This document shows positions 48,062 to 63,816 of a DNA stretch of 64,000 nucleotides, in pieces. Each line of letters starts with the position of its first letter. Position 1 is the first letter of the stretch. The DNA is from Keratinibaculum paraultunense (lineage in GTDB: Bacteria > Bacillota > Clostridia > Tissierellales > Tepidimicrobiaceae): positions 1,364,001-1,428,000 of the forward strand of contig NZ_CP068564.1 of NCBI RefSeq assembly GCF_016767175.1, in the 5' to 3' direction. The notes under the pieces were generated by a model. It ran no database searches, was not told where the DNA came from, and worked only from the letters and a program-made list of their open reading frames with translations. The position numbers and the translations under genes are program-made.

Positions 48062-48826
48062 TTAATATCCTAATTTTTCAGGAGTTAATCCAATAAACAT
48101 TAAAATTTCTTCCATCTCATTATAAGATATTTTCCCATTTTCATAATTAGCTTTTACATATATTAAATATTCCCTTGGGATATAATTTTCATTTGATGGA
48201 ATTATTAAATCTATATTAAATCCTTCTTCCATAGTTATAGATTGAAGTTCATCTTTTCGTTCCAAAGTAGAAATATCCAATAATTGAAAATATCTTTTTT
48301 GGGAACATAAATTAAGCTGAACTAATCTTTTAAGCATGGCTTTGTAACTCACTTTAAAGTAATTATGCATCCTTATTACATGTCTAGGCTCAACATTATC
48401 TTTATCCACATTTACAGTTTTTAAAAAAATCTCCTTTACATAGTCTTCAGGCATTAAAAATTCAGCAGCAAATACATCTGCTTTCATCTCTTCTTCTTCA
48501 TATTTATTTTCGTCTATAAATACTTTTTCTTTTTTTAATATATCTTTATTATACATTATGTGATATAGTTCATGAGCTCCTGTATAACGTTCATGACCTA
48601 AGCTAAAACTACTATTTAGATATACTACGAAACGATCCTCATAATAGGTAATAAATCCAGAAAGCCCTTCTACATCTAAGGGTTTTCTAATTAGAAATGC
48701 TATTTCTGAAAGAATGTCAAATATATCTGATAACCCTTTTTTAGCAAATTTGATTCTAGTTTCTTCTGCTAATTCCTTGATTTTTAATCTAAATAATTCA
48801 TCGGGAATATTTATATTTTTTTTCAT
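48062..48826 (-). CDS. ImmA/IrrE family metallo-endopeptidase
   Basis: This 254-residue zinc peptidase has the HExxH motif at His85-Glu86-xx-His89 (GAHELYHIMYN) and a downstream EEEMKADVFAAEFLMP helix that supplies the third metal ligand. In ICEBs1 (ImmA/ImmR) and Deinococcus (IrrE/DdrO) such proteases cleave a partner XRE repressor upon stress. The XRE gene at 48950-49303 is immediately upstream in the same direction, so the pair probably works that way. A 73-base relic of mcrC lies between them. An inactive fragment of a second immA is at 8416-8496. The gene has its own terminator. Confidence 0.9.
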   Translation of the reverse strand: MKKNINIPDELFRLKIKELAEETRIKFAKKGLSDIFDILSEIAFLIRKPLDVEGLSGFITYYEDRFVVYLNSSFSLGHERYTGAHELYHIMYNKDILKKEKVFIDENKYEEEEMKADVFAAEFLMPEDYVKEIFLKTVNVDKDNVEPRHVIRMHNYFKVSYKAMLKRLVQLNLCSQKRYFQLLDISTLERKDELQSITMEEGFNIDLIIPSNENYIPREYLIYVKANYENGKISYNEMEEILMFIGLTPEKLGY

Positions 48827-48872
48827 AAAATTTATCCTTCCTTCCCTATAAAACGATGCTATTTTTTTGTAT

Positions 48873-48945
48873 CATATACAATATTATAGACTATGGTTAA
48901 GAATCTTCTTTTTATCCTGTCAAAGCCTTCTCCTAAATTTATCAA
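48873..48945 (-). pseudogene. Relic of the mcrC 3' end
   Basis: The minus strand encodes NLGEGFDRIKRRFLTIVYNI, matching the last part of McrC at 8543-9589 (NLGEDFDKIKSRLLSIGYIL), with clear nucleotide similarity to about 8557-8632. It lies between the XRE and ImmA genes, showing that mcrBC was deleted from this cassette. Confidence 0.8.
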
Positions 48946-48949
48946 TATA

Positions 48950-49303
48950 TTAATATTTCTCTTTCTTATATATCTTTTCTTGTTCTATAAATATTTTCAC
49001 CATTTCCTGAAGTTGTGAAATTTCTTTTAATGTATTTTGAGAATAGTTTTTTCTCCTAAAGAAGGTTACCAAATCCTCTGATTCTTCTTCATCAAAAAAA
49101 TCATCCATATCTACACCAAATACATCACTTATAGCTTTTAATTCTATAGCAGAAATAGATCTACTGTTGTTTTCAATTTTGCTTAATGTTTCTCTACTCA
49201 TATTTATACCAAGTTGAGCAAGCTCTTCTACTACTTTTGATTGGCTTAAGCCTCTCTCTTCTCTAAATGCTTTTATCTTTTTACCAATCTCATATTTAGG
49301 CAT
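48950..49303 (-). CDS. XRE-family transcriptional regulator
   Basis: This 117-residue protein has a helix-turn-helix at residues 5-65: IGKKIKAFREERGLSQSKVV, then LSKIENNSRSISAIELKAIS. An acidic hinge (DDFFDEEESED) and a helical C-terminus likely used for dimerisation follow. The hinge could be the ImmA/IrrE cleavage region, by analogy with DdrO and ImmR. Its own promoter (49318-49354) carries the palindrome GTAATA-N3-TATTAC over the -10, which suggests autorepression. Four more such promoters lie in this window. A deleted copy remains at 11678-11782. It is the best candidate for a regulator joining McrBC, Cas9 and envelope genes. Confidence 0.9.
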   Translation of the reverse strand: MPKYEIGKKIKAFREERGLSQSKVVEELAQLGINMSRETLSKIENNSRSISAIELKAISDVFGVDMDDFFDEEESEDLVTFFRRKNYSQNTLKEISQLQEMVKIFIEQEKIYKKEKY

Positions 49304-49388: not shown

Positions 49389-50138
49389 TTAAAAATAAAT
49401 TTCTACTTTATAATTCTTTTTGAGTTCTTCTGCTTTATCTAAGTATAGTTGTTGTTGCTTCATCAATATTAATTGTTGATTAATCTGTCCTTTTACTTCA
49501 TCTAATGGGCTAATGCTTGGTTCTTTTTTATAATCTAATTTGATTAAGTGATATCCAAATTGAGTTTTTACAGGTTTACTTATTTCCCCTTCCTCCATGG
49601 AAAAAGCTACTTCTTCAAACTCTGGTACCATTTTACCTCTACTAAATTTACCTAAATCTCCACCATTGGCTTTTGATGGACAATTGGAATATTTGCTAGC
49701 TGCATCTTCAAAGGATGTACCGTTATCTATCTCATCAAGTACTTCATTAGCTTTCTCTTCATCATCTACTAATATATGACTAGCTCTAGCCATTTCTGGC
49801 CTTTGGAAAAAATGCTTATTTTCATTATAGAACTTTTCAATTTCTTCTTCTGATACAGTTATTCCTTCAAATAATTTATTAATTGCGTATTGTTTTAAAA
49901 CACCTATTTTGATTTTTTCCAATTCCTCTTTAAAAGCTTCTTCTTCATCTAAATTTTTTTCAATAGCATCTAAATATAGAAGTTCTTGATTTACTAGCTC
50001 ATTAGCTATTTGATTTATACCTTCTGGTGAGCTAAATTGAGCTGCAACTTGTGGATCTAATTGATTTAAAAATCCATATACATCTTGACTAGTTATATCT
50101 TTTCCGTTAACCGTTGCTAATACTTTGTTTTCACTCAT
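49389..50138 (-). CDS. Parvulin-type peptidyl-prolyl isomerase (cytoplasmic, PrsA/SurA-like)
   Basis: This 249-residue protein has an N-terminal SurA-like helical arm (VNGKDITSQDVYGFLNQLDP) and a rotamase domain at about residues 115-205, with ARASHILVDDEEKANEVL, GGDLGKFSRGKMVPEFEEVA and FGYHLIKL. No signal peptide or lipobox is present, so unlike PrsA it probably acts in the cytoplasm. It stands downstream of the ATP-grasp gene with a 62-base gap and may share its transcript. Substrates unknown. Confidence 0.85.
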   Translation of the reverse strand: MSENKVLATVNGKDITSQDVYGFLNQLDPQVAAQFSSPEGINQIANELVNQELLYLDAIEKNLDEEEAFKEELEKIKIGVLKQYAINKLFEGITVSEEEIEKFYNENKHFFQRPEMARASHILVDDEEKANEVLDEIDNGTSFEDAASKYSNCPSKANGGDLGKFSRGKMVPEFEEVAFSMEEGEISKPVKTQFGYHLIKLDYKKEPSISPLDEVKGQINQQLILMKQQQLYLDKAEELKKNYKVEIYF

Positions 50139-50200: not shown

Positions 50201-51193
50201 CTAGTTTGATGTCAAGCAATTATATCTTTCAATGGCACTCTCTAAAATTGTAGATAGGAATTCTGGGGCATCCATGCCAGCTGCTTTTGCTGAATATCCC
50301 ATATATCCATGATGTACTTCAATTTTTCCCTCTTCACTCTTCCTTGACTCCATAGTCAAACCAGCGTAAGTATTAATTTCTAAAAAATAAGGTACATTAT
50401 CTTTTCCTACAATCATGTCAATTCTAGCATAATCCTTAGCATTTAATATCTTATATATTTTTAGTGCTATGTCCTTTATATTATTTTCTACTTCTTTTGG
50501 AAATTCGGCTGGGCATTTAATTATTTCGTTATCATACATTTTATGCTGAAAAGTATTGGTTTTAGCAGAATTATATTGGATTTCTACAATTGGAAGTACT
50601 TTTGGATTATGATATCCTATGATTCCTACAGTAATTTCTCTACCTTCTATAAACTCTTCAATTAATGCTGCTTGCCCTAACTTTTTAGTAATCTTATCAA
50701 CTACCTTAGGCAACTGTTCATACTTATAAATAATATTTTCTTCATCAATACCGGCACTTCCTCTTCCTTCTATCGGTTTAACAAATAAGGGATATTCTAA
50801 ATCTATTTCAGGTATTTTATCCGAACTTTTAGCTACTGTAAATTTAGGTGTTGGTAATTCATTGTATGCTACTAATTCTTTTCTAGTAGCTTTATTTAAA
50901 GAAACCAAATCTAATCCAGAACCCACATAAGGTATTTCAAATGTTTCTAAAAAAGCAACTTCCCTTAAACTTGATGCATTAAATATTATATCCACATTGT
51001 TTTTTTTAATATCTTCATATGTTTCTATTGGATCCTTCTTCCATTCAATCATAGCCACATCGTAGCCTGCTTCTTTTAAAGCACAAAAATGATGATACGC
51101 TTCTTCATAAGCATCATCGTAAACTTCATCTGGTGTAAATTTCATCTGTTGTTCTACATTTCTAAATTTTCTCCATAGTATACCGACTTTCAT
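50201..51193 (-). CDS. D-Ala-D-Ala-ligase-like ATP-grasp ligase
   Basis: This 330-residue ATP-grasp enzyme joins a carboxylate to an amine through an acyl phosphate. The ATP-grasp core is clear: YPLFVKPIEGRGSAGI for the nucleotide lysine and glycine loop, LIEEFIEGREITVGI, and the metal site DYARIDMIVG with YFLEINTYAGLT. The N-terminal domain (VGILWRKFRNVEQQ) differs from housekeeping Ddl. It lies in one operon with an opine-dehydrogenase-like and a B12-binding gene, so cell-wall synthesis is less likely than ligation of a special amino acid or opine. The true substrates are unknown. Confidence 0.75.
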   Translation of the reverse strand: MKVGILWRKFRNVEQQMKFTPDEVYDDAYEEAYHHFCALKEAGYDVAMIEWKKDPIETYEDIKKNNVDIIFNASSLREVAFLETFEIPYVGSGLDLVSLNKATRKELVAYNELPTPKFTVAKSSDKIPEIDLEYPLFVKPIEGRGSAGIDEENIIYKYEQLPKVVDKITKKLGQAALIEEFIEGREITVGIIGYHNPKVLPIVEIQYNSAKTNTFQHKMYDNEIIKCPAEFPKEVENNIKDIALKIYKILNAKDYARIDMIVGKDNVPYFLEINTYAGLTMESRKSEEGKIEVHHGYMGYSAKAAGMDAPEFLSTILESAIERYNCLTSN

Positions 51194-51316
51194 ATAAAAA
51201 CCTCCTCTGTCATTCCCATAATGTCAATTATATAATTTATTATCACATTTAACCTGAATTATATTTAAAAATAAAATCGCTCTATATTAACATTATATCA
51301 AAGTTTAACATATCCT

Positions 51317-52588
51317 TCAAATAGGAGCATGTTTAAATAATCCTCCTGTTAAATATTTAACTAAAAATTCTGTTTCAAATTTTTCAAGATTTCTTCCTTT
51401 TGCTCTAGAGTCAACATTAAATTTTTCATCATAAAGATCTATGATATAAGTTATTTCATCATGATTAATATTAAACCTTTTTGCCAAAGCTTCTAATGGA
51501 ACAAGTCCTGTTGGAATGTCTTCTTCAACATATCTTTTTTGAGGCACCGACATTTTTTGATACGTTGGAGTTCGTCTAATAGCAGAACATATAGATTCTC
51601 CTTCTATTCTTCTAACATCATAAGTTATATCTAACCAATGTTGTGCTGAAAAAACAGCAGTACTAATTTCTTTTAAATAATCTTGTTTTAAAGTCTTTAA
51701 ATTTGCTATATTATCTATATTTTCTTCTAATTGAGCTTTTCTAATCTTATTCATTATTTCTTTCCATCTTTCTTCACGTGGAGAAAATGAACATCCAAAA
51801 ACTGATAAATTCAAGTAGTATGCAATATTAAGTCTAGTTTGATCTATTGCTTCTATACACTTTCCTACATCACTCTTTTCAGCTATTCCTTGCATATAAA
51901 AGGAATAAGCCTTCCCTTTTCTTTCGTATTCTTTTATTTCTTCATAATTTAATACATAAGGTGCTACATGGAATACTGCACCTATATTGCCTAATGATGT
52001 ACTAGCAGGAATTTGGTTATATAAAACTTGTGGGAAAATTTGTTTAATTAAATCAATATCTTCATCTTTAAACTCCCCTTCTAGAGAAGCTACCAAATTC
52101 TTTTTTCTTCTTTTAATAAGTACGCTACCTGGTGATAAAGATTTAGATGAATAAGGTAATGTCGAAAAACAAACAACAGGATAATCCATCCCTAAAATAC
52201 TCCAAATATATGGAGGAGTCAATGTTCTACTACAACCTAATACTAATGGAATTCTTTTTTCTACCATTCCTGCTTCTTTAAGTTTTGTAACTGTTTCCTC
52301 AACATAGTGTGAAGGATGAGAAATAACAATAATATCTGAATAATCAATTAATTTTTCTAAATCATTTCCTACTTTGCTATTTTTAAGTTCAATAAATTGG
52401 GATTTTTCTCCTATAATATCATCTGGTCTTTCTAGCATAATCCCATTATTCTTATTTACTTCATTTATAAATTCCAATCCTCGCTGTGAAGATCTAGCAT
52501 ATCCATAGACATTGTACCCCTTTAAAAGAAAATCTGCTAAAAATGCTTTTCCACTTTGTGTACTTGCTCCATATATACCTATCTTCAT
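51317..52588 (-). CDS. Opine-dehydrogenase-like NAD(P)-binding enzyme
   Basis: This protein has about 423 residues. Residues 1-160 form a Rossmann domain starting KIGIYGASTQSGKAFLADFL, with the dinucleotide-binding GxxxxxG and a later IVISHPSHYVEETVTKLKEA helix. The remainder is the helical octopine/nopaline dehydrogenase domain with ASTSLGNIGAVFHVAPYVLN, where the catalytic histidine is expected. Such enzymes reductively couple an amino acid to a keto acid, and in metallophore pathways an aminobutyryl chain to pyruvate or ketoglutarate. The frame opens at GTG 52600, but the ATG at 52588 begins the Rossmann fold and is preferred. Its operon partners are the B12-binding and ATP-grasp genes. 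Confidence 0.7.
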   Translation of the reverse strand: MKIGIYGASTQSGKAFLADFLLKGYNVYGYARSSQRGLEFINEVNKNNGIMLERPDDIIGEKSQFIELKNSKVGNDLEKLIDYSDIIVISHPSHYVEETVTKLKEAGMVEKRIPLVLGCSRTLTPPYIWSILGMDYPVVCFSTLPYSSKSLSPGSVLIKRRKKNLVASLEGEFKDEDIDLIKQIFPQVLYNQIPASTSLGNIGAVFHVAPYVLNYEEIKEYERKGKAYSFYMQGIAEKSDVGKCIEAIDQTRLNIAYYLNLSVFGCSFSPREERWKEIMNKIRKAQLEENIDNIANLKTLKQDYLKEISTAVFSAQHWLDITYDVRRIEGESICSAIRRTPTYQKMSVPQKRYVEEDIPTGLVPLEALAKRFNINHDEITYIIDLYDEKFNVDSRAKGRNLEKFETEFLVKYLTGGLFKHAPI

Positions 52589-52666
52589 ATTCAAACTCAC
52601 TTCCTTTCTTTTTCGCTATGCCAATATTTTGAAACACTTTGTTTCTCTCTAATAATTAATTACTTC

Positions 52667-54520
52667 CTAATTTAATTTATTAAATCTTTTAAGCTGATTT
52701 AACCTTTCTTCCTCTGACAACACTTTATAAGTCTCAAAATTTATAGCATCTATAAAACCATATTTAGTTGGCTTTGTAAGCAAATACTCTTGCCTATAGG
52801 AAGGATGCATAATTCCCGGTGCTGCCATATATCCTGTCTTTATAGCCTTTTTTAATGTGTCATTGTTTGCTAAATATGGTGCTAATTCTGATAAATGACC
52901 TCCAGTATATAGAAGATTAAGTTTCGCTATTTCTTCCAATAAAAATGATGCTTCTTTGATAAGATATTCTTTCCTTTCTAATACAATAGGATCGTTCATA
53001 TATTTAATTAAATCTGGTTTGTTTTCTTCAAATAATCTTATTGCTCTACGAACTATTTGAGAACTTTTAATTATATCCTCTGGTGTTGCTGCATGGTCGG
53101 CTTCACAATAACTTACAAGGTGTATAATTTGCGGATCTATAATCATCTGTAAAAGTGTAGATCTTGCTAATTGATATCGGGCTTTTTCCATATCTGGACT
53201 TAAATATTCAATTCCTGTACGAGTTTGTTTCCACATTCTTGATGAAGGATTATATTGTGCTATTATGTTTGAAATTTCAATAGCAGCAGACATCTTTGCA
53301 AGATCTGCTAGATCACCTGTTTCTACAGGCTTATTAAACTGGAACTGATATATTCTATTCTTTACTCCAGAAGTCACCATAACTGCAGTTATCAATGCAT
53401 AATCCGTTACTATTAGTGTGTCGTGTGCATATCTAGATGCCCACTGATTAGGATCATTCATCTCAACTGGTATACCTAATTTTGCAAGCTTTTTAACTGC
53501 TAAAATATGTTCATCTATAGATTCACTTACTGATAATGGTCCTCTTCCATCTAACTCATTAAACCAAAATAACGGAATAGCTTGATGGGCACCAATTAAC
53601 ATTCCTGCTTCAATGCATATATCAATAAAATTTAATATATCATATACATGAGCATAAGGTTTCATAGATGGATAATTACCTCGTCTAGTTGCTTTAAAAA
53701 GCATAACTAAGTCATCATAATCCTTATAAGGTACTCCACCATCATTTTTCCTATTTTCAAATTCTTCTGGTCTGCCAAAATACCTTTGGGATAAATCAGA
53801 GGATCCTAAAGAAATTTCATCTACAACTTTTGCATCTGCTATAATTTTTATCCCTTCTACGGTAGGGTATATTGAATCAGAAGGAATCCCAAAATGTGTA
53901 CGTATTAAAGGTCTTCCTGCTTCTTCATATCTATATGTTAAAGAAACTTTTGCTTTCTCAGAAGGTACATTAAGAGGTGGCTCAAGGCGATATTTTTCTC
54001 CTGCAATTACTTCTTCTGCAAGTTGATCTAATTCTTTAACTCTATAAGGAAACATTTCTTCTTTAAGTTGTGCTAAGGCTTTTTCTCTTCTACTACTATA
54101 AACTTCAAAATAATCAAGAACTGATATTGCTTTCGCTAAAGGATCTGTTTCAGGAGGAATTAAAAATACTTCACAAGGTAATGTATTCTTCTTTTTCTCT
54201 AGTATTTCAATGGTTTTAGGAAGTCCTGCTAAAGCAATTTTTCTTCTATCGCCATTTTCTTTAGTTAAAAGTCCAAGTTCTTCTAATTTATGCAGTATAT
54301 AAGTAAACTCTTTCACTCCAATTTCAGGAGTCAATCTATAACTAATACCAATAAAATCAGGTTCATGATATTTTATAGCTTCTGCTATTTCATCTATTGT
54401 TTTACCCGGTGCTAAAACATGACAATTAATGTTTGCTAATCTTCCAATATGAGCAGATTTAAAAAGTCCTTCTGTATGTGGATCATTACCTACAGTAAAA
54501 GCTAAATAAGTTTTCTTCAT
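52667..54520 (-). CDS. Cobalamin-binding enzyme, mutase-like, first gene of a riboswitched operon
   Basis: This protein has about 617 residues. The N-terminus carries the B12-binding signature Asp13-x-His15-x-x-Gly18 (NDPHTEG), followed by a Rossmann-like domain to about residue 120 (PDFIGISYRLTPEI, KIALAGLPKTIE). Residues about 170-450 look like a TIM barrel with distant resemblance to the large subunits of methylaspartate or amino mutases (GVPYKDYDDLVMLFK, VPVEMND-like PNQWASRYAHDT). A helical C-terminus follows. A longer frame to 54556 lacks a good site, whereas AAAGGGG lies 10 bases before the ATG at 54520. Transcription is governed by the c-di-AMP riboswitch upstream. It probably catalyses a B12-dependent rearrangement. 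Exact chemistry unknown. Confidence 0.65.
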   Translation of the reverse strand: MKKTYLAFTVGNDPHTEGLFKSAHIGRLANINCHVLAPGKTIDEIAEAIKYHEPDFIGISYRLTPEIGVKEFTYILHKLEELGLLTKENGDRRKIALAGLPKTIEILEKKKNTLPCEVFLIPPETDPLAKAISVLDYFEVYSSRREKALAQLKEEMFPYRVKELDQLAEEVIAGEKYRLEPPLNVPSEKAKVSLTYRYEEAGRPLIRTHFGIPSDSIYPTVEGIKIIADAKVVDEISLGSSDLSQRYFGRPEEFENRKNDGGVPYKDYDDLVMLFKATRRGNYPSMKPYAHVYDILNFIDICIEAGMLIGAHQAIPLFWFNELDGRGPLSVSESIDEHILAVKKLAKLGIPVEMNDPNQWASRYAHDTLIVTDYALITAVMVTSGVKNRIYQFQFNKPVETGDLADLAKMSAAIEISNIIAQYNPSSRMWKQTRTGIEYLSPDMEKARYQLARSTLLQMIIDPQIIHLVSYCEADHAATPEDIIKSSQIVRRAIRLFEENKPDLIKYMNDPIVLERKEYLIKEASFLLEEIAKLNLLYTGGHLSELAPYLANNDTLKKAIKTGYMAAPGIMHPSYRQEYLLTKPTKYGFIDAINFETYKVLSEEERLNQLKRFNKLN

Positions 54521-54566
54521 TATGGATATACCCCTTTCATATTCAATATTTTTCATTCAAAAACAT

Positions 54567-54620
54567 AAAAAAGACTATGGGGTTTATTTCTACTTTTCCA
54601 TAGTTCTAAACCATAGTCTT
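54567..54620 (-). terminator. Riboswitch expression-platform terminator
   Basis: On the minus strand AAGACTATGG and CCATAGTCTT form the stem, with a long loop that has its own partial pairing, followed by TTTTTTA. It lies between the c-di-AMP aptamer and the B12-binding gene, so ligand binding should decide read-through. Confidence 0.85.
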
Positions 54621-54645
54621 AAAACACAGAAATATTAACCCCTTT

Positions 54646-54756
54646 ACGCTTACGAAGTTAGCTGTCGGGTTCGGGCAAAGGTTAGCCCTCAATTAATAAG
54701 GATTCACCCCAAATAAGTGGGTCCTCCGCTTCTTATAATAATAAGAATTCAGCGTT
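54646..54756 (-). ncRNA. c-di-AMP riboswitch (ydaO/yuaA class)
   Basis: The minus strand shows the class signature in order: P1 arm AACGCT, GCGGAGGACCCA, GGGGTGAATCC, GGGCTAACC, TTTGCCCGAACCCGACAGC, and TAACTTCGTAAGCGT closing P1. Known members usually turn genes off when c-di-AMP is high and control osmolyte transport, potassium and wall genes. Here it precedes the B12-binding / opine-dehydrogenase-like / ATP-grasp operon. Confidence 0.93.
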
Positions 54757-55681: not shown

Positions 55682-55706
55682 TATTAAAAACCCACTAGAG
55701 TTTTCC
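55673..55706. terminator. Bidirectional terminator
   Basis: Arms AAACTCTAGT and ACTAGAGTTT with A- and T-rich flanks serve the convergent DUF441 and GGDEF genes. Confidence 0.85.
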
Positions 55707-56643
55707 CTATAGATATAGTGGTTATACACTTATTCCCACCTTTGTTTTTAGCACAATACATGGCTTTATCTGCCTTAAATATTAAATCATCAATATTATT
55801 TCCATCCTCTGGGTAAAAGCTAACTCCTATACTCAAGGATATATTCACTTGTATATCATCAAGAATTATAATCTCTCTATTTGCATCAGCTATTCTAGAA
55901 GCAATTATCTCATAATTATCATAGTATTGAATATCAGGAAGTAATATTAAAAATTCATCTCCACCATATCTAGAAACTATATCATGTTTTCTAGTGGATT
56001 CTTCTAATATATTCGCAATTTGAATTACTACTTGATCACCTGCTTTATGCCCATACTCATCATTTATTTTCTTAAAATTATCTATATCAATAAACATCAA
56101 TCCTAATTTGCTATTATCTCTTTTAGCTTTTTCTAAAAACTTTTCTGCTACATGACAAAAAAGTGTCCTATTAGCTAAACCAGTAAGTTGGTCATAATAA
56201 GCTAATTTTTCTATTTCCTTCTCCTTTTCTTTTAGCTTTTTATTTAATATATATAATTCATTGCTATATTTTTTTAATTGTTCTATTCTAAGAACTTGGC
56301 TAGTTACATCTATACATTCAATAATCACATATCTAGAATTATCTCTCACGAATCTATTTATCCTTATATTTAATTTTCTAGTATCTGTAATCAAACCTTC
56401 ATGTATAGTGGAAGAAAAGAAATATTTGTAATCATTTTCTATAACTGAATTTACTGCTTTTTTAAAATAGTTTTTATCCAAATTAGGTAACCTTTCATAT
56501 AGATTGGAATTTATAGCCTCTTCTTTTTTTATCTGAGTTAAATTTTCCATTTGAATATTCCAAAATAGTATATTTAATTTTTCATCTGTTATTATTATGC
56601 CTTCATTTACATAATTCAGTATATCAAATAATGTACTATCCAT
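55684..56643 (-). CDS. PAS-GGDEF diguanylate cyclase
   Basis: This 319-residue signalling protein has a PAS domain at about residues 5-120 (NEGIIITDEKLNILFWNIQM), a coiled coil at 125-150, and a GGDEF domain at about 155-310. The active-site loop is intact (SRYGGDEFLILLPD), with LAYYDQLTGLANRTLF and SLSIGVSFYPEDG as family landmarks. It should make cyclic di-GMP in response to a PAS-sensed cue. No membrane segment is present. It overlaps the CheC-like gene by 8 bases, so the cyclase, CheC and CheY form one signalling operon. Confidence 0.92.
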   Translation of the reverse strand: MDSTLFDILNYVNEGIIITDEKLNILFWNIQMENLTQIKKEEAINSNLYERLPNLDKNYFKKAVNSVIENDYKYFFSSTIHEGLITDTRKLNIRINRFVRDNSRYVIIECIDVTSQVLRIEQLKKYSNELYILNKKLKEKEKEIEKLAYYDQLTGLANRTLFCHVAEKFLEKAKRDNSKLGLMFIDIDNFKKINDEYGHKAGDQVVIQIANILEESTRKHDIVSRYGGDEFLILLPDIQYYDNYEIIASRIADANREIIILDDIQVNISLSIGVSFYPEDGNNIDDLIFKADKAMYCAKNKGGNKCITTISIGKTLVGF

Positions 56644-57268
56644 TTAAATCATCTTCCATCTTATTTATCATTTTTTGCAACTCCTTTAATGAATCTAAAG
56701 TCAAATCAATAATTATAGCTCCTTCTATTTTTACATCAGCTATTACAAAGGTAACATACAATAATAGAATACAAAATTCTTCTTTGCTTTTTATGTCATT
56801 TTTTAAATTATCCTTGTCAAATATTTTTACCTTTGGTAAAGTATATTTTAAACTCACATCTAATATGTTTCCTATTTCACCTATTATGGAATTTAGCATT
56901 ATATTACCTATTTCCCTTATAACATCAAGATCCATATCAGTAAAAACTAAATTATCTCCCTCTATGTATTCTGGTTGATCCATACATAAATTTACAAAAG
57001 TTCTCATCTTATTAGCTGGAAATAATAAATTTGCTTCACCAGTTAATCGATCTCCAAATTTAATAGAAGATATCATCAATGCACCTTGAGGTAATGAAGA
57101 AAAATGTTTTGTAATTTCTTCTTTCTCTTCTGACCCTAATATAATTATATTTGGGATATCTAACATTATTCTCTTGTCCACTATCTCTGAAAGCATACTA
57201 GCAGCTTTACCAACACCTATATTAAATATTTCTCTTAATACATCGTACATTAAACTATTTTTATACAT
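56636..57268 (-). CDS. CheC/CheX-family chemotaxis phosphatase
   Basis: This protein of about 210 residues resembles CheC. Two copies of the phosphatase signature are visible: DVLREIFNIGVGKAASMLSE near the N-terminus and DVIREIGNIMLNSIIGEIGN in the middle, each carrying the E and N that act on phosphorylated CheY. The frame opens at GTG 57277, but AAAAGGTG is best spaced for the ATG at 57268. It overlaps the upstream receiver gene by 8 bases and the downstream cyclase gene by 8 bases. It probably dephosphorylates the adjacent CheY-like protein and so ties that signal to c-di-GMP output. The fit to CheC is good; exact subgroup unsure. Confidence 0.82.
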   Translation of the reverse strand: MYKNSLMYDVLREIFNIGVGKAASMLSEIVDKRIMLDIPNIIILGSEEKEEITKHFSSLPQGALMISSIKFGDRLTGEANLLFPANKMRTFVNLCMDQPEYIEGDNLVFTDMDLDVIREIGNIMLNSIIGEIGNILDVSLKYTLPKVKIFDKDNLKNDIKSKEEFCILLLYVTFVIADVKIEGAIIIDLTLDSLKELQKMINKMEDDLNG

Positions 57269-57632
57269 TAGCATCACCTTTTATCAGATTTGCTACTAAT
57301 TCTGCTTTCTCTTTTGTAAAAGGTTTGTTTATAAACTCAATTATATCATAGGAACTGATATCTTTTTTTACACTTTTTTGCACATCAGCTGATAAAACAA
57401 ATATATTTGAATTTTTATCATATCCTTTTATTAACTTTATCAATTCTTGTCCATTTACATTAGGCATAAGTAAATCAATAAATACATAATCTGGCTTGCA
57501 TCCTTTATATTTATCAAATCCTTCTTCTCCATCGTTAGCAAATATTATTTCTAAATCATCAATATATGCTTTTAAAAGTTTCGCTGTAGTCAATTGAGTA
57601 AATCTAGAGTCATCAACTATAAGTATTTTCAT
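57261..57632 (-). CDS. CheY-like single-domain response regulator
   Basis: This 123-residue receiver has no output domain. The acidic pocket Asp7-Asp8 (ILIVDDSRFTQ), phosphorylation site near Asp53 (YVFIDLLMPNVNG), the switch serine (VLSADVQ) and the lysine (FINKPFT) are all present. It is the first gene of the three-gene operon with CheC and the GGDEF protein, so it probably relays a chemosensory or sensor-kinase signal to them. No kinase is in the window. Confidence 0.92.
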   Translation of the reverse strand: MKILIVDDSRFTQLTTAKLLKAYIDDLEIIFANDGEEGFDKYKGCKPDYVFIDLLMPNVNGQELIKLIKGYDKNSNIFVLSADVQKSVKKDISSYDIIEFINKPFTKEKAELVANLIKGDANV

Positions 57633-58573: not shown

Positions 58574-58825
58574 CTATTTTTTTCTTTTTCTGTTTTCTTC
58601 CATTATTTTTTCATTTATATAGTCATAGCCCTTAGGTGAGTGAGGTATTAAGCAATTGGTACAATCTTTAATTCCATAGTTATCAAAATAATTTCCTCCA
58701 CATTCTTCTAAAAAGTATAATGGACAGTAGCAAAACATACAGTTAAAATTTTCTTCATCTTTTACTTTATGGCAAGGAAAGTATTCACATGCCGTATTTC
58801 TATAAAATCTATAGGAATTTTCCAT
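58574..58825 (-). CDS. Cysteine-rich small domain protein at the end of the cbi operon
   Basis: This 83-residue protein has a dense cysteine pattern (ACEYFPCHKVKDEENFNCMF, CYCPLY, ECGG, DCTNCLIPH) fit to bind zinc or an iron-sulfur cluster. Proteins of this cysteine-rich small domain type recur in anaerobic cobalamin gene clusters, where their role is not settled; a cobalt-chelation or metal-trafficking role is a guess. Its ATG overlaps the cbiJ stop (TAATG), so it is translated as the last member of the operon. Confidence 0.8.
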   Translation of the reverse strand: MENSYRFYRNTACEYFPCHKVKDEENFNCMFCYCPLYFLEECGGNYFDNYGIKDCTNCLIPHSPKGYDYINEKIMEENRKRKK

Positions 58826-59556
58826 TAAATATTCCCCCTTATTATTTTTTCTATAAAATCTAAATTATGATAGCCTTCTTCTTCATCTCTACCTATTATT
58901 ATAGGCTTTATATCTAGTTCTTCACAAGCTTTTATTTTATTTAAAGTACCTCCTTCTTTCCCACTATCCTTCATTACTACATAATCCACATTATACTCTT
59001 TAAACATTGCCTTATTATACTCTATGGAAAAAGGTCCTAGTACTGCAACTATATCTTTCATATTTACACCATGTTCTTTACATATTTTAATGCTTTCTAT
59101 TGTAGGAAGAACTCTATATATAAACCTATTTTTACTTCGTATTTTTTCAAAATCTCCAATATTTTTAGAACCTGTAGTAAAAAATACATCCCCCTTTATA
59201 TTAGCAATATAGTCATAAGCTTCTTCAAAACTATTTAAATATATGCCTTTTGGAGTAGATAAGGCTTTTTTTCTAATATATCTAATGTATTTTATTCCCT
59301 TTTCATTTGCTGCTTTCTTTGCATTCTGGGTAACCTTCTTAGCATAGGGATGAGAAAGATCCACTATCATATTTACATTATTTTGGGTAATAAAATCCAG
59401 CATATTATTATAATCCATTCTTCCTACATGAAATTTTGTTCCTTTTAAAAATTCCTTTCCATCATCTGTAGCTATAGTTACTATATAATCATCTAAATCT
59501 CTAATTTTATCAATTAATTCCCTTGCTTCACTAGTACCTCCTATTATCCATATCAT
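58825..59556 (-). CDS. cbiJ: Cobalt-precorrin-6A reductase
   Basis: This 243-residue NAD(P)H-dependent enzyme reduces the macrocycle of cobalt-precorrin-6A. It opens with the nucleotide loop IWIIGGTSEARELIDKI. MIVDLSHPYAKKVTQNAKKA and the conserved VLGPFSIEYNKAMF segment follow, then MKDSGKEGGTLNKIKACEEL. All are typical of CbiJ/CobK. It overlaps cbiH by 4 bases (ATGA). It is the sixth ring-modifying step present here. Expression is with the whole cbi operon. Confidence 0.93.
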   Translation of the reverse strand: MIWIIGGTSEARELIDKIRDLDDYIVTIATDDGKEFLKGTKFHVGRMDYNNMLDFITQNNVNMIVDLSHPYAKKVTQNAKKAANEKGIKYIRYIRKKALSTPKGIYLNSFEEAYDYIANIKGDVFFTTGSKNIGDFEKIRSKNRFIYRVLPTIESIKICKEHGVNMKDIVAVLGPFSIEYNKAMFKEYNVDYVVMKDSGKEGGTLNKIKACEELDIKPIIIGRDEEEGYHNLDFIEKIIRGNI

Positions 59557-60275
59557 TTAATATCGTACCCCCTTGGTGTTATCATTTGCCCATCCTTTAT
59601 ATAGGTATTGGTATTGCCTATTATTAATATACTTAACATATCCACTTCTTCGTAGGGTATTTCCCCAAGGGTTGTTAACCAAATTTTTCTATTGATACGT
59701 CCTGAATTCCTAACTATGCCTACTGGCGTATCTTTTTGTTTGTATTTTAGCATTATATCTACTGCTTTTTTTAAGTGTTCTTTCCTTCCTTTACTTCTAG
59801 GATTGTATATAACTATTACAAAATCTCCTTCTGCAGCCTTTTCAATCCTTTTTTCTATTATATCCCAAGGAGTTAATAGATCGCTTAAACTTATAGTGGC
59901 AAAGTCATGCATAATAGGTGAGCCCAATTCACTTGCTGCAGAAAATGCTGCTGTAACCCCTGGAATTATTTCTACATCTATGTCTTCTTTTAATTCTAAA
60001 ATGGGACCTGCCATACCATATAATCCTGCATCTCCTGTGGAAACAATAGCAGTATTTTTTCCTTCTTTCACTTTTTGAATTGCCAATTTACATCTTTCTA
60101 TTTCTCCTCTCATGCCTGTAGAATATATTTCCTTTCCTTCTACTAAATCTTCTAAATACTCTATATAAGGAGTGTAGCCAACTATAACTTGACAATCTTT
60201 TATAGTTTCTACTGCTTTTAAAGTCATATAATCTCTACCTCCTGGACCAATACCTACTACATATAATTTAGCCAT
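59553..60275 (-). CDS. cbiH: Cobalt-precorrin-3B C17-methyltransferase
   Basis: This 240-residue SAM-dependent tetrapyrrole methyltransferase contracts and methylates the ring at C17. The family loop YVVGIGPGGRDYMTLKAVET, the GYTPY region, STGDAGLYGMAGPI and VEIIPGVTAAFSAASELGSP are present, and the C-terminus has NPRSKGRKEHLKKA, distinctive for CbiH/CobJ. It overlaps cbiG by 8 bases upstream and cbiJ by 4 downstream, so the enzymes should be made in equal amounts. Confidence 0.94.
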   Translation of the reverse strand: MAKLYVVGIGPGGRDYMTLKAVETIKDCQVIVGYTPYIEYLEDLVEGKEIYSTGMRGEIERCKLAIQKVKEGKNTAIVSTGDAGLYGMAGPILELKEDIDVEIIPGVTAAFSAASELGSPIMHDFATISLSDLLTPWDIIEKRIEKAAEGDFVIVIYNPRSKGRKEHLKKAVDIMLKYKQKDTPVGIVRNSGRINRKIWLTTLGEIPYEEVDMLSILIIGNTNTYIKDGQMITPRGYDIK

Positions 60276-61284
60276 ACTTTGCCTCCTTTGCTATGGATAA
60301 GGTTATCCCATTTATCTTTACCTTGCCTGTTAACATTTTTCCCCCTAATAGATAGGCAGAAGGTTCTGATACAGAATAAACTCCTATTGTATCTTTAACA
60401 AATTGGGATTTAGAAAAATTTTGTTCTACTTTTTTAATTTCATCTATGGTAAATATCTTTAAAGGACAATTAAAATATCTACAGGCCTCTATTATTCCTA
60501 TTTCATGTTCTTTCACTTTTATTGTACCTATTGTTTTTATACCTTTAGGGGAAAGGTTTAAATTTTTTAATAAATAATTTATAGCTTTGATTATTCTACT
60601 TCCTTCTATACCTTTCCTACACCCTATGCCAATATTGATATTTTTAGGAATTAATTTACAATGTTTTTCATAAGGATGATCTATTTGTTCTTGTGAACTT
60701 ACTATTATAACCCCTTGAACATTTAAATTTTTATTCTTTAAATTGTCCAACAATAACAATTTATCATATTTTATAATCTCATCCATCTCAGAATAAAATC
60801 CTATAGTATCTCCATTGACCATCATAGCTGTAATATCCTTTACATCTTCCATATTCTCCATATAATAATTATTTTTAATTGCAAATAAATCAACAGATTG
60901 TATACCTCTATTATCAGAAGCGGTAGTAATAACTGGGATAGCTCCTATAGTATGTCCTACCCATTGGGCTAATTTGTTAGCACCACCAATATGCCCAGAT
61001 AATAAACTTATAGAAAATATTCCTTCATCATCCACCACTACTACAGCAGGATCTACAGTTTTGTTTATTATATAGGGTGTCATAAGTCTAACAGCAATTC
61101 CTGTAGCTGATATAAATACTAACCCATCGTATTCCATGACTAAAAAAAGCAATATAGATTTTATTCCTCCATCTATTTCATCATTACTAAAATGATGAAT
61201 TATATAATATTCAGAGCTTGATTTAACCAATTTTTCCCCTATTTCTTTCCCCTTTTGAGTAAAGGATATACAAGCAATTTTCAT
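60268..61284 (-). CDS. cbiG: Cobalt-precorrin-5A hydrolase
   Basis: This 338-residue CbiG opens the delta-lactone of cobalt-precorrin-5A with loss of acetaldehyde. The N-terminal domain has YDGLVFISATGIAVRLMTPY, PAVVVVDDEGIFSISLLSGHIGGANKLA and VITTASDNRG. The C-terminal domain has IGIGCRKGIEGSRIIKAINY. Presence of CbiG shows the oxygen-independent route of corrin synthesis. It starts at an ATGA overlap with cbiF. Confidence 0.94.
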   Translation of the reverse strand: MKIACISFTQKGKEIGEKLVKSSSEYYIIHHFSNDEIDGGIKSILLFLVMEYDGLVFISATGIAVRLMTPYIINKTVDPAVVVVDDEGIFSISLLSGHIGGANKLAQWVGHTIGAIPVITTASDNRGIQSVDLFAIKNNYYMENMEDVKDITAMMVNGDTIGFYSEMDEIIKYDKLLLLDNLKNKNLNVQGVIIVSSQEQIDHPYEKHCKLIPKNINIGIGCRKGIEGSRIIKAINYLLKNLNLSPKGIKTIGTIKVKEHEIGIIEACRYFNCPLKIFTIDEIKKVEQNFSKSQFVKDTIGVYSVSEPSAYLLGGKMLTGKVKINGITLSIAKEAKYG

Positions 61285-62036
61285 CTATTACCCTCCCTAT
61301 ATCCATGGGAAAAAGAAGGATGATATAATTTTGATCTTTTATATTCCCCTTCTATAAAATCCCCCACTAATATCTGAGCAGTTTTTGTAATACCTTCCTT
61401 TTGAACTTTTTCAACTATATCCTTTAAAGTACCTATTATAATCTTTTCATCATCCCAAGTAACTTTATATACTACAGCTATTGGCACATCATCCCTGCCA
61501 TAACCTTTTTTTAGTTTTTCTACTACTCTATCTAAATTTTTAACTGATAAAAATATTGCCATAGAAGCTTTATGTTTTGCCAATAATTCTAAATCTTCTT
61601 CCTCTGGAACTGGAGTTTTGCCTTCTATTCTAGTTAGTATTACTGTTTGGCTTACATTAGGTAATGTAAATTCTCTTTTTATGGAAGAACAAGCTGCAGT
61701 AAAGGAACTAACGCCAGGTATCACCTGATATTCTATACCTTTCTTAGCTAGCATATCCATCTGTTCTCTAATGGCACCATATATGGTAGGATCTCCTGAA
61801 TGAAGTCTTACTACTTTTAGGTCTTTCTTTGCTGCATATTCCATCTTGTCCACTATCTCTTCTAAAGTCATGGAAGCACTATTATATATATTACAATCTG
61901 GTTTACAAAAGGATAAATGCTCTCTAGATACTAAACTTCCAGCGTATATAACTACATCTGCTTCTTCCAAAAGCTTTCTTCCTTTTACAGTTATTAAATC
62001 CACATCTCCTGGGCCTGCACCTACAAAGCTAATCAT
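61281..62036 (-). CDS. cbiF: Cobalt-precorrin-4 C11-methyltransferase
   Basis: This SAM methyltransferase of about 251 residues acts on C11. Family landmarks are ISFVGAGPGDVDLITVKGRK, YAGSLVSREHLSFCKPDC, RLHSGDPTIYGAIREQMD and IPGVSSFTAACSSIKREFTL. The frame can begin at 62054, but the bases there are the AAGGAGGA ribosome binding site, so the ATG at 62036 is the start. It overlaps the cbiL stop by 8 bases, a sign of coupled translation. Confidence 0.94.
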   Translation of the reverse strand: MISFVGAGPGDVDLITVKGRKLLEEADVVIYAGSLVSREHLSFCKPDCNIYNSASMTLEEIVDKMEYAAKKDLKVVRLHSGDPTIYGAIREQMDMLAKKGIEYQVIPGVSSFTAACSSIKREFTLPNVSQTVILTRIEGKTPVPEEEDLELLAKHKASMAIFLSVKNLDRVVEKLKKGYGRDDVPIAVVYKVTWDDEKIIIGTLKDIVEKVQKEGITKTAQILVGDFIEGEYKRSKLYHPSFSHGYREGNR

Positions 62037-62691
62037 CGGCTTTCCTCCTTCCAATAATAAAGGATAGGTAATCTTTATCTTTTATTATTTCATCCTTTTT
62101 GGTAAGTATCTTCTCATCTTTTAGACTTACTCTTTTTATATATGCATAACTAAAACCCTTATTTTCTAATATATCCAATATTTTTTCCTTATCTTTCATA
62201 GTTTTTAGTATACATAAAGTATCTATATTATCTAACATGTTTTCTTGAAATTCATCCATTAATAAAAATTTATCCCCTTTTACTGTTAAAGGTATTTTCG
62301 ATTGAGCTGCCCCTAATACAAAGGATGATATCCCTGGAATTATTTCTACTTGAATTTTATTCTTGTCTAATTTTTCCATTATGTATATAAAGGTACTATA
62401 TATCATAGGATCTCCTATGGTTAAATACACTCCATATTCTCCTTCTGGAATTTCAGTATAAATTATTTGGGCTGCATTTATATAATCTTTTTCTGTAACT
62501 TTTCCCATGGGAAAATCTAATAATATCACTTTTTTGTATTGGATATATTCCTCTACTGTATCTAGTGCTATGTTTTTATCTTTATTACTTGGAGCAAATA
62601 CTACACTAGCCCCTTGAATCTTTTTTACTGCCTTTATTGTCAATAACTCCTTATCTCCAGGACCTGTTCCTATTCCATATAGTTTTTTCAC
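62029..62691 (-). CDS. cbiL: Cobalt-precorrin-2 C20-methyltransferase
   Basis: This 220-residue enzyme transfers the third methyl group of corrin synthesis from SAM to C20. YGIGTGPGDKELLTIKAVKK, FAPSNKDKNIALDTVEEYIQ, LTIGDPMIYSTFIYIMEKL and EIIPGISSFVLGAAQSKIPL define the CbiL/CobI group. It starts at an ATGA overlap with cbiT and is followed by cbiF. No irregularity is seen. Confidence 0.93.
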   Translation of the reverse strand: MKKLYGIGTGPGDKELLTIKAVKKIQGASVVFAPSNKDKNIALDTVEEYIQYKKVILLDFPMGKVTEKDYINAAQIIYTEIPEGEYGVYLTIGDPMIYSTFIYIMEKLDKNKIQVEIIPGISSFVLGAAQSKIPLTVKGDKFLLMDEFQENMLDNIDTLCILKTMKDKEKILDILENKGFSYAYIKRVSLKDEKILTKKDEIIKDKDYLSFIIGRRKADD

Positions 62692-63236
62692 TTTTTCACT
62701 CCTTTTACTATAAATATAGGATTTTCACCTTTCATAAGCCCTATATCATCCCTATAGGAAGACTGAATTAAATGGACTTCTATTTCTTGATATTTATGGA
62801 TTTCTAACAAATTAATAAATTTATTTAAATTTTTTAATGTGATAAAATTTCCACACAATATTCCTTTTGATTCTAAATGTTTCTCTAAATAATTAAATAT
62901 TCCCTCTAGTTTTCCTCCACTACCTCCTAGGAAACATTTATTAAATTTAATATCAGGTAATACCTCTGGTGCTTCTCCAAGTATTACTTCTACTTCTACT
63001 TGAAATTTAGATTTATTTATTTTTATAATCTCTACACCCTCTTGGGTTTTTTCAACAGCCCAAACTTTTGCACCTTGTAAAGCTGCTTCTATGGATATAC
63101 TTCCTGTACCAGCACCTATATCCAATAGCCTGTCTCCTTTTTCTATAGATAGATAAGCCATATTTAATATTCTAATATTGAATTTTGTCATGGGAACCTT
63201 TCCTCGTATAAATTCATTATCTTTAATCCATCGCAT
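62688..63236 (-). CDS. cbiT: Cobalt-precorrin-6B C15-methyltransferase (decarboxylating)
   Basis: This 182-residue CbiT methylates C15 and decarboxylates the C12 side chain. It has a classical SAM Rossmann fold with RLLDIGAGTGSISIEAALQG and the acidic end of strand 2 in VWAVEKTQEG. FIRGKVPMTKFNIRILNMAY is the typical N-terminal segment. It overlaps the end of cbiE by 14 bases. In many bacteria CbiE and CbiT are fused (CobL); here they are separate, coupled genes. Confidence 0.93.
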   Translation of the reverse strand: MRWIKDNEFIRGKVPMTKFNIRILNMAYLSIEKGDRLLDIGAGTGSISIEAALQGAKVWAVEKTQEGVEIIKINKSKFQVEVEVILGEAPEVLPDIKFNKCFLGGSGGKLEGIFNYLEKHLESKGILCGNFITLKNLNKFINLLEIHKYQEIEVHLIQSSYRDDIGLMKGENPIFIVKGVKK

Positions 63237-63816
63237 TTTCTACCACCACCACTGATAAAGGTGAAATATCCTCTAAAGCTTCTCCTATATTTACCTTTAT
63301 TATTCTCTCATCTTCATAGGAGAGATTGAAACCTGCATATATTATTCCCTCTATGCCCATTTTGTATAATCTTTTAGATATGCTTGAAGGGCTATTATCC
63401 TTGTCTGTAAGAATTATAGAAAATTTATGCTCCTTTATAGTGTCTAAGTTTTCCTCTCTACCATGGAGAGATAATAGATTTGCTCCTTGCCAACTTTTAC
63501 CTAGTTTAGCCATCATATACTGAAAAGAGGAAATCCCTGGCATTATTTTTTCAATTACAATATTTTGTCTATTAAGATATTCTACTATTCCATAGAAACA
63601 AGGGTCCCCTGATGCAAGTATTAAAATATGTTCATATTCTTTTATTAGTTTATCTATATAAGCTATCTTGTTGATTTTTATAATATCCTTTCTGATAATC
63701 TCTAAGGAATTGGAAACTCTTCCAAAAGCTACTACATTTTCATAGCTTTTTATAGCTTCCATAACTTCCATAGTCAAATATTTAGGATTACCAGGTCCTA
63801 CTCCAGCTACTACTAC
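63223..63816 (-). CDS. cbiE: Cobalt-precorrin-7 C5-methyltransferase, lacking an in-frame start codon
   Basis: This SAM methyltransferase partners CbiT. The in-frame coding sequence includes VVVAGVGPGNPKYLTMEVME at its N-terminus (the SAM-binding GxGPG loop), then ASGDPCFYGIVEYL and IMPGISSFQYMMAKL, so the family is clear. However, the first in-frame ATG (63777) lies past the GxGPG loop, and no ATG, GTG or TTG exists between the preceding in-frame stop and that loop. The well-placed ATG at 63821 is in another frame and runs ATG GGG TAG. One extra G in the GGGG tract (63815-63818) would restore M-G-V-V-V. A sequencing or real frameshift, or -1 slippage from cbiD, are the options. Confidence 0.8.
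   Translation of the reverse strand, partial: VVVAGVGPGNPKYLTMEVMEAIKSYENVVAFGRVSNSLEIIRKDIIKINKIAYIDKLIKEYEHILILASGDPCFYGIVEYLNRQNIVIEKIMPGISSFQYMMAKLGKSWQGANLLSLHGREENLDTIKEHKFSIILTDKDNSPSSISKRLYKMGIEGIIYAGFNLSYEDERIIKVNIGEALEDISPLSVVVVENAMD

Follow-up and report, generated by a model that had tools for sequence, protein, structure and literature searches.

A c-di-AMP riboswitch recurs before a putative B12-dependent mutase and opine dehydrogenase pair: a possible osmolyte pathway in Keratinibaculum paraultunense and other bacteria

Introduction

The closest described relatives of the genes considered here come from a 2009 prediction, in which a family of proteins with a B12-binding domain always lies beside an octopine/nopaline dehydrogenase (pfam02317; NAD/NADP), with a D-Ala-D-Ala ligase (Ddl) or an asparagine synthase nearby in several organisms (PMC2667541). 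The available sections of that paper place the family in 11 bacteria from the Clostridia, Lactobacillales, Chloroflexi and Thermotogae, assign it no function and call for experiments. Here, we describe an operon of this kind in Keratinibaculum paraultunense (contig NZ_CP068564.1, positions 1,364,001 to 1,428,000; this stretch of 64,000 nucleotides is the window referred to throughout), in which a riboswitch for cyclic dimeric adenosine monophosphate (c-di-AMP) precedes genes for a putative B12-dependent mutase (mutA), an opine dehydrogenase (opA) and an ATP-grasp ligase. The 2009 prediction is reportedly the work of Zhang & Gladyshev. New in the present analysis are the link to c-di-AMP, with counts, the glutamate mutase fold of the first enzyme and the company of GlmL at some loci, the identity of the dehydrogenase as a relative of N-(1-D-carboxyethyl)-L-norvaline dehydrogenase (CENDH), and evidence that sets the ligase apart from Ddl.

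A second point of reference is a tandem riboswitch for Na+ and c-di-AMP that, in the available part of its description, controls lysine 2,3-aminomutase, the maker of the osmolyte precursor beta-lysine (PMC9337991). Among the papers listed in our literature searches, none was seen to join c-di-AMP riboswitches with the mutase and dehydrogenase gene pair, although lists of riboswitch targets may already print it.

Results and discussion

The c-di-AMP riboswitch and its recurrence

RF00379, the ydaO/yuaA class of c-di-AMP riboswitch, is the sole Rfam family at gathering score within the window, and its match upstream of mutA spans the full model (1-134). Fold prediction places an intrinsic terminator behind the aptamer and, overlapping it, an antiterminator that uses the aptamer end, so that the 3' side of the aptamer can pair with the right arm of the terminator hairpin. 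The two leader hairpins are predicted to be mutually exclusive, an arrangement typical of riboswitches that turn transcription off. A simple terminator scan missed the hairpin (54620-54571), probably since it allows loops of 3 to 8 bases only, and a promoter scan gave 26 sites compared to 30.4 in shuffled sequences, leaving no assignable promoter. The genome holds two genes with a diadenylate cyclase (DAC) domain and a second c-di-AMP riboswitch (G000:C1:1880520-1880675, minus strand), which precedes a gene for opine dehydrogenase B (opB) with no neighboring mutase; a DAC-domain gene (1887628) lies ~7 kb from this second riboswitch.

Relatives of the mutase fall into three families. Family A, the type found in the window, comprises proteins of ~615 amino acids with an aspartate in the B12-binding motif, and is represented by the window, by locus L123 and by 16 loci of a contig survey. 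Family B proteins (~550 amino acids) have a cysteine there in all 10 aligned rows, and family C proteins (~635 amino acids) include one copy in the K. paraultunense genome itself (G000:C1:1810736-1811740). Of 398 genomes of the phylum, 86 hold a relative of some type (E <= 1e-5, own genome counted). Of the family-B-like places, 85 were taken, with the own genome and G129 left out, and omission of G320, at a contig edge, gave 84 loci, among which one weak row (G007, 34% identity) may be type C.

These loci were searched with a covariance model (R1) trained on 22 riboswitches from K. paraultunense and related genomes. Of the training sequences, 12 lie upstream of opB and none comes from the 84 regions. 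R1 detected the RNA upstream of 37 of the 84 loci, within ~4.5 kb of the mutase match and with 3 of the 84 upstream regions shorter than 2.3 kb; every one of its 39 matches lay on the mutase strand. In the contig survey (80 loci, 1.33 Mb), 17 R1 matches at E up to 0.1 were again all on the mutase strand, at 17 of 64 family B loci and 0 of 16 family A loci, one of them (L119) being an R1 training sequence. The contig and whole-genome surveys share assemblies (L043, L044 and L056 are G405, G411 and G415), and their counts are not additive. Rfam's own model, applied to relatives, placed the riboswitch at 12 of 13 family B, 2 of 5 family A and 0 of 8 family C loci. A preliminary description of the operon had called for a survey of the gene set and its riboswitch in other genomes: the RNA does recur, beside a gene set that was already in print in 2009 (PMC2667541).

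The riboswitch also keeps informative company. Thirty riboswitch loci were fetched from the relatives, of which 18 precede opB and 2 precede mutA. Transport genes are prominent among eight other targets, with OpuAC glycine-betaine-type binding proteins (two), an ABC ATPase with CBS domains, family 3 solute-binding proteins (two) and the K+ transporter TrkH, next to two sensory genes; the last two loci comprise one without a usable open reading frame (ORF) and one under the cut-off. That the enzyme genes share their riboswitch class with genes for betaine-type and K+ uptake forms our main argument for an osmolyte, and it supports the osmotic link that had been drawn from the riboswitch in the window.

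Two of the mutase loci, L213 and L230, are each preceded by a pair of c-di-AMP aptamer matches, separated by ~0.27 and 2.4 kb, respectively. The pair at L213 resembles a tandem riboswitch; at L230, the outer aptamer may serve another gene.

A B12-type mutase with a glutamate mutase fold

Sequence searches of the mutase alone in Pfam, NCBIfam and PDB found almost nothing, and the protein was placed only by fold and profile searches. The N-terminus of MutA scores 20.5 bits for the B12-binding Pfam domain, under the curated cut-off of 32.1, and carries the motif DPHTEG, of the DxHxxG type. D13, H15 and G18 are kept in 16 of 16 family A rows; family B has a cysteine at position 13 (10 of 10 rows) and retains the histidine and glycine. 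A profile of 26 mutase sequences reaches 4jgi, a structure named as uncharacterized, at E = 6.6e-06, and 1y80, a predicted cobalamin-binding protein, at E = 0.0042. MutA is probably a cobalamin-dependent enzyme.

A structure model made from the same number of aligned sequences (26; mean predicted local distance difference test score of 90) has a C-terminal barrel whose top Foldseek match is glutamate mutase E (1cb7_B; E = 2.3e-11), superposed with Z = 29.4 at 3.0 Å over 376 residues. Lysine 5,6-aminomutase (Z = 27.0), ornithine 4,5-aminomutase (24.5) and methylmalonyl-CoA mutase (20.3) rank lower. As modeled, the barrel belongs to the fold group of adenosylcobalamin (AdoCbl)-dependent mutases. 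PF06368 (glutamate mutase) gave no match to MutA at E up to 1 and none in the whole genome. GlmE and the mutase align weakly (13% identity, probability 53%); R66, R100 and R149 of GlmE, which we take to be its three substrate arginines, fall in a by-eye, strand-anchored reading of that alignment on H209, on L243 (family A) or Asn/Asp (family B), and on K287 (family A) or Arg (family B). Aligned rows of the two families differ at position 287 (Lys in A, Arg in B) and at positions 240 and 241 (SS in A, PD in B), and the families may accordingly differ in substrate. A gene for the accessory protein GlmL stands between opB and the family B mutase gene (mutB) in L059, where it passes its NCBIfam cut-off (597 compared to 475 bits), and a GlmL homolog is nearby in 6 of 64 family B loci, of which that of L059 was tested against NCBIfam.

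A pyridoxal 5'-phosphate (PLP) enzyme like the lysine 5,6- and ornithine 4,5-aminomutases was considered and rejected. In those enzymes the PLP lysine presumably lies 11 residues past the cobalt-ligand histidine; the corresponding residue 26 is Gly or Ala in 26 of 26 aligned sequences.

An opine dehydrogenase of the CENDH type

OpA, which adjoins the mutase in the window, matches PF02317 (83.6 bits, cut-off 30). A profile of 19 family A and B dehydrogenases matched CENDH (1bg6) over its whole length at E = 1.7e-109 and octopine dehydrogenase at 3.9e-26. H207 and D357 are invariant in 19 of 19 sequences and align to His202 and Asp297 of CENDH, which we take to be catalytic. Given this match and the retained histidine and aspartate, the chemistry is probably reductive N-alkylation with a 2-oxo acid. 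In family A, the nucleotide-binding loop departs from GxGxxG; in the window it reads GASTQSG. The preliminary description was sound on the core of the operon, in naming a ydaO-class aptamer with terminator, a DxHxxG protein with a mutase-like barrel and an opine-dehydrogenase-like enzyme.

Opine dehydrogenases also make metallophores of the staphylopine type, and a metallophore had been among the products suggested for this operon. A dehydrogenase profile (A5) does match staphylopine dehydrogenase, over part of its length and at E = 3.4e-06, far more weakly than the match to CENDH. Read by eye, with no family-level search, the genes next to the operon include none that resembles a metal transporter, an exporter or a nicotianamine synthase. 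We consider a metallophore very improbable.

The pair itself is the constant element of these loci. A dehydrogenase was called in 59 of 64 family B loci fetched, mostly adjoining the mutase. In family A, the window and L123 have one, as do 13 of the 16 loci fetched; gene calls in loci of high G+C content were crude, and in L072, L098 and L114 no mutase was called. Without the RNA, the pair extends to further phyla and to Thorarchaeota, and it stays constant while its neighbors vary between lineages.

That constancy bears on a different reading, in which the enzymes belong to a fermentative or redox pathway, for NADH disposal or amino acid degradation, and c-di-AMP control mirrors energy or ion status. 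In invertebrates, enzymes of the opine dehydrogenase type serve to recycle NADH. The family B pair of L129 and L130 adjoins 2-oxoacid-oxidoreductase-like and butyrate-kinase-like genes (by eye), and the family C mutase gene (mutC; 635 amino acids in L127 and L142) adjoins a 2-hydroxyglutaryl-CoA-dehydratase-D protein and, by eye, an activator-like ATPase. However, the pair stays when such neighbors change, the further targets of the RNA include betaine-type and K+ transport genes, and an ATP-consuming ligase recurs at these loci, and so a fermentative role appears improbable.

The ligase is separate from D-Ala-D-Ala ligase

The third gene of the operon encodes a protein whose C-terminal ATP-grasp domain matches PF07478 (109.2 bits, cut-off 24). 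The N-terminal domain of Ddl (PF01820) has three matches in the genome, and the operon ligase is not among them. All 14 housekeeping Ddl proteins carry the motif GGxSxEHEVS, compared to 0 of 9 operon-linked ligases, and a branch with 100/100 support separates the two groups in a tree that omits the truncated L110 and in which L048 sits on a long branch. The two best scores of the operon ligase against NCBIfam Ddl models, 136.3 and 113.7 bits, fall under the cut-offs of 243 and 245.65. Identity as a D-Ala-D-Ala ligase was rejected on these grounds. The description of this enzyme as D-Ala-D-Ala-ligase-like thus holds for its ATP-grasp domain and fails for the identity of a true Ddl, which weakens the accompanying idea of a wall amino acid.

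The genome has a separate, intact housekeeping ddl (1280113-1281171). A further ddl copy with an in-frame TAA (G000:C1:2148286-2148883) is followed, by eye, by a murF-like fragment and a transposase-like ORF.

Ddl-like ligases occur in 8 of 64 family B loci (L071, L088, L089, L090, L110, L112, L118 and L122), 5 of which also have the riboswitch. Elsewhere, an AsnB-like gene adjoins mutB (L094, L100, L106 and L117) or lies farther off with a weaker match (L120 and L135), and the asparagine synthase of L136 passes the cut-off for asparagine synthase B, so that the enzyme near family B loci may be an ordinary one. Neither a Ddl-like nor an AsnB-like gene is seen in 10 of the 17 riboswitch loci of the contig survey. 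By the tests applied to its sequence, the Ddl-like ligase is a recurrent, optional partner of the pair and not a wall enzyme.

A putative osmolyte pathway and the points against it

With modest confidence, we favor the reading that the operon is a c-di-AMP-repressed pathway to a small amino acid-derived osmolyte or counter-ion solute. The B12-type enzyme would act on a common acid or amino acid and rearrange its carbon skeleton as glutamate mutase does, the opine dehydrogenase would join an amino group and a 2-oxo acid with NAD(P)H, and the ATP-grasp ligase would form an amide on a carboxylate. At high c-di-AMP, the operon would be switched off. When the cell needs solute, c-di-AMP levels would fall, allowing the antiterminator to form and the genes to be transcribed. 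More tentatively, and with the balance of our judgment against it in this specific form, the mutase and the dehydrogenase could make a branched amino acid of the opine type, with optional amidation by a dedicated ligase or an asparagine synthase, on a B12-dependent and directly c-di-AMP-controlled route to a new compatible solute in several lineages.

Several observations weigh against an osmolyte. First, 47 of the 84 family-B-like loci show no such RNA with model R1, and only 2 of 18 family A loci, those of the window and L123, carry the riboswitch. Second, in two relatives the riboswitch stands before sensory genes, encoding a dCache/HAMP protein and a histidine kinase. Third, the glutamate-binding arginines are mostly lost in the weak alignment, which makes it improbable that the substrate is glutamate held as in glutamate mutase; a plain conversion of glutamate to 3-methylaspartate is possible. 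Fourth, the K. paraultunense genome has opine dehydrogenase B, yet no family B mutase was found in it. Finally, family A in Bacteroidetes and Hydrogenedentes sits, mostly by eye, in polysaccharide-type clusters with ATP-grasp ligases (L045, L046, L050-L054, L057 and L058), where an opine dehydrogenase is present in 8 of 9 (not in L053).

These last clusters suggest a product attached to a surface polymer, and they speak for the alternative that a modified amino acid or opine-like group is attached to a surface polysaccharide or wall polymer, with c-di-AMP control reflecting an envelope function. Glycosyltransferase-like and aminotransferase-like genes accompany family A there (by eye), and in L050 Pfam confirms a PGA_cap protein, a sugar-transfer ATP-grasp protein and a further ATP-grasp protein with an L-amino-acid-ligase-type part; the D-Ala-ligase-like third gene of the window operon fits as well. 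Against this, a by-eye reading found no polysaccharide genes beside the window operon or in the family B loci read, the operon ligase lacks the hallmarks of Ddl, and 10 of the 17 riboswitch loci of the contig survey have neither a Ddl-like nor an AsnB-like gene. We regard attachment to a polymer as unlikely. Possibly, the product of these enzymes is a building block, accumulated in some lineages and attached to polymers in others.

The unpaired opB has a possible explanation. At a threshold of at least 65% identity, opB is present in 19 of 41 relatives, all of which have mutB (12) or mutC without mutB (7). Among the 22 relatives without such an opB, 21 have neither mutB nor mutC, and G427 has mutB with a dehydrogenase of 38% identity. 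Within the family of K. paraultunense, in the 11 genomes without mutB, opB occurs in 7 of 7 with mutC and 0 of 4 without it (Fisher 0.003, a value that ignores relatedness and gaps in draft genomes). This distribution hints that mutC acts as the partner of opB in trans, an idea on which we do not build because mutC sits with a dehydratase-type gene and has no riboswitch upstream.

The osmolyte reading gives the 2009 B12 family a functional lead, as its operons recurrently stand under the same riboswitch as betaine-type and K+ uptake genes. If correct, it would extend known osmolyte chemistry by a B12-dependent pathway and would link the salt or heat tolerance of anaerobes, several of them thermophilic to judge by their names, to the supply of B12.

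Surroundings of the operon

Table 1. Features of the operon and neighboring genes in the window
Feature	Position	Strand	Support or remark
c-di-AMP (ydaO/yuaA) riboswitch aptamer, RF00379	54632..54764	-	cmscan 99 bits, gathering score 38, E 2.9e-22
Predicted intrinsic terminator, then U run	54571..54620	-	ViennaRNA -16.0 kcal/mol
Predicted antiterminator overlapping terminator	54579..54642	-	ViennaRNA -20.9 kcal/mol
mutA: N-terminal B12-binding-type domain and AdoCbl-mutase-type barrel, 617 amino acids	52667..54520	-	Alternative ATG 54556
opA: CENDH-type opine dehydrogenase (PF02317)	51317..52588	-	Alternative GTG 52600
D-Ala-ligase-like ATP-grasp ligase without Ddl N-domain	50201..51193	-
PpiC-type peptidyl-prolyl isomerase, directly downstream of ligase	49389..50138	-
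Cobalamin biosynthesis genes, neighborhood only	58825..63777	-	First two NCBIfam-confirmed, others read by eye

The PpiC-type isomerase is possibly cotranscribed with the operon and probably unrelated to its function. As had been pointed out, a B12 operon lies a few kilobases away: cobalamin genes, of which precorrin-6A reductase (58825-59556) and precorrin-3B C17-methyltransferase (59553-60275) pass their NCBIfam cut-offs, lie ~4 kb upstream of the aptamer. Intervening genes on both strands make this cluster a neighbor outside the operon. Between the two (55684-57632) lie genes for a GGDEF/PAS protein and a CheC-like protein and, by eye, a response-regulator-like gene. Downstream, positions 48062-49303 show a weak resemblance in NCBIfam, under the cut-offs, to HTH regulators and an spr1629-type repressor/antitoxin, and may hold a regulator pair.

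Comparison with known systems

Each enzyme of the operon has a recognizable counterpart from which it departs. Like glutamate (methylaspartate) mutase GlmES, which provides the best match to the barrel fold and whose GlmL gene stands beside some family B members, MutA is putatively a carbon-skeleton mutase; unlike GlmES, it has its B12 domain fused at the N-terminus, shares only ~12% identity with it, lacks PF06368 and has, in the weak alignment, mostly lost the substrate arginines. The dehydrogenase resembles CENDH over its whole length with invariant positions for the catalytic His and Asp, and differs in the altered nucleotide-binding loop of family A. The ligase shares PF07478 with D-Ala-D-Ala ligase and lacks both PF01820 and GGxSxEHEVS.

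As a series of reactions, the operon recalls the pyrrolysine route, in which a mutase (PylB), an ATP-grasp ligase (PylC) and a Rossmann dehydrogenase (PylD) act in series. An ATP-grasp protein of L050 adds to the likeness with a PylC match of 52.1 bits, far under the cut-off of 248.3. The likeness is an analogy only; the mutase chemistry and the dehydrogenase family are others.

Compared to the 2009 description of the gene set, the domain order differs, with a TIM-barrel-like structure placed there in the N-terminus and found here in the C-terminus, behind an N-terminal B12 domain; the available sections of that paper make no link to c-di-AMP (ydaO occurs 0 times in the whole paper), mention no glutamate mutase fold and do not split the family into types (PMC2667541). 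In regulation, the closest parallel is the lysine 2,3-aminomutase system, likewise, as far as its available description goes, an isomerase for an amino acid osmolyte behind a c-di-AMP riboswitch with a terminator; here, a B12-type mutase paired with an opine dehydrogenase takes the place of that isomerase (PMC9337991).

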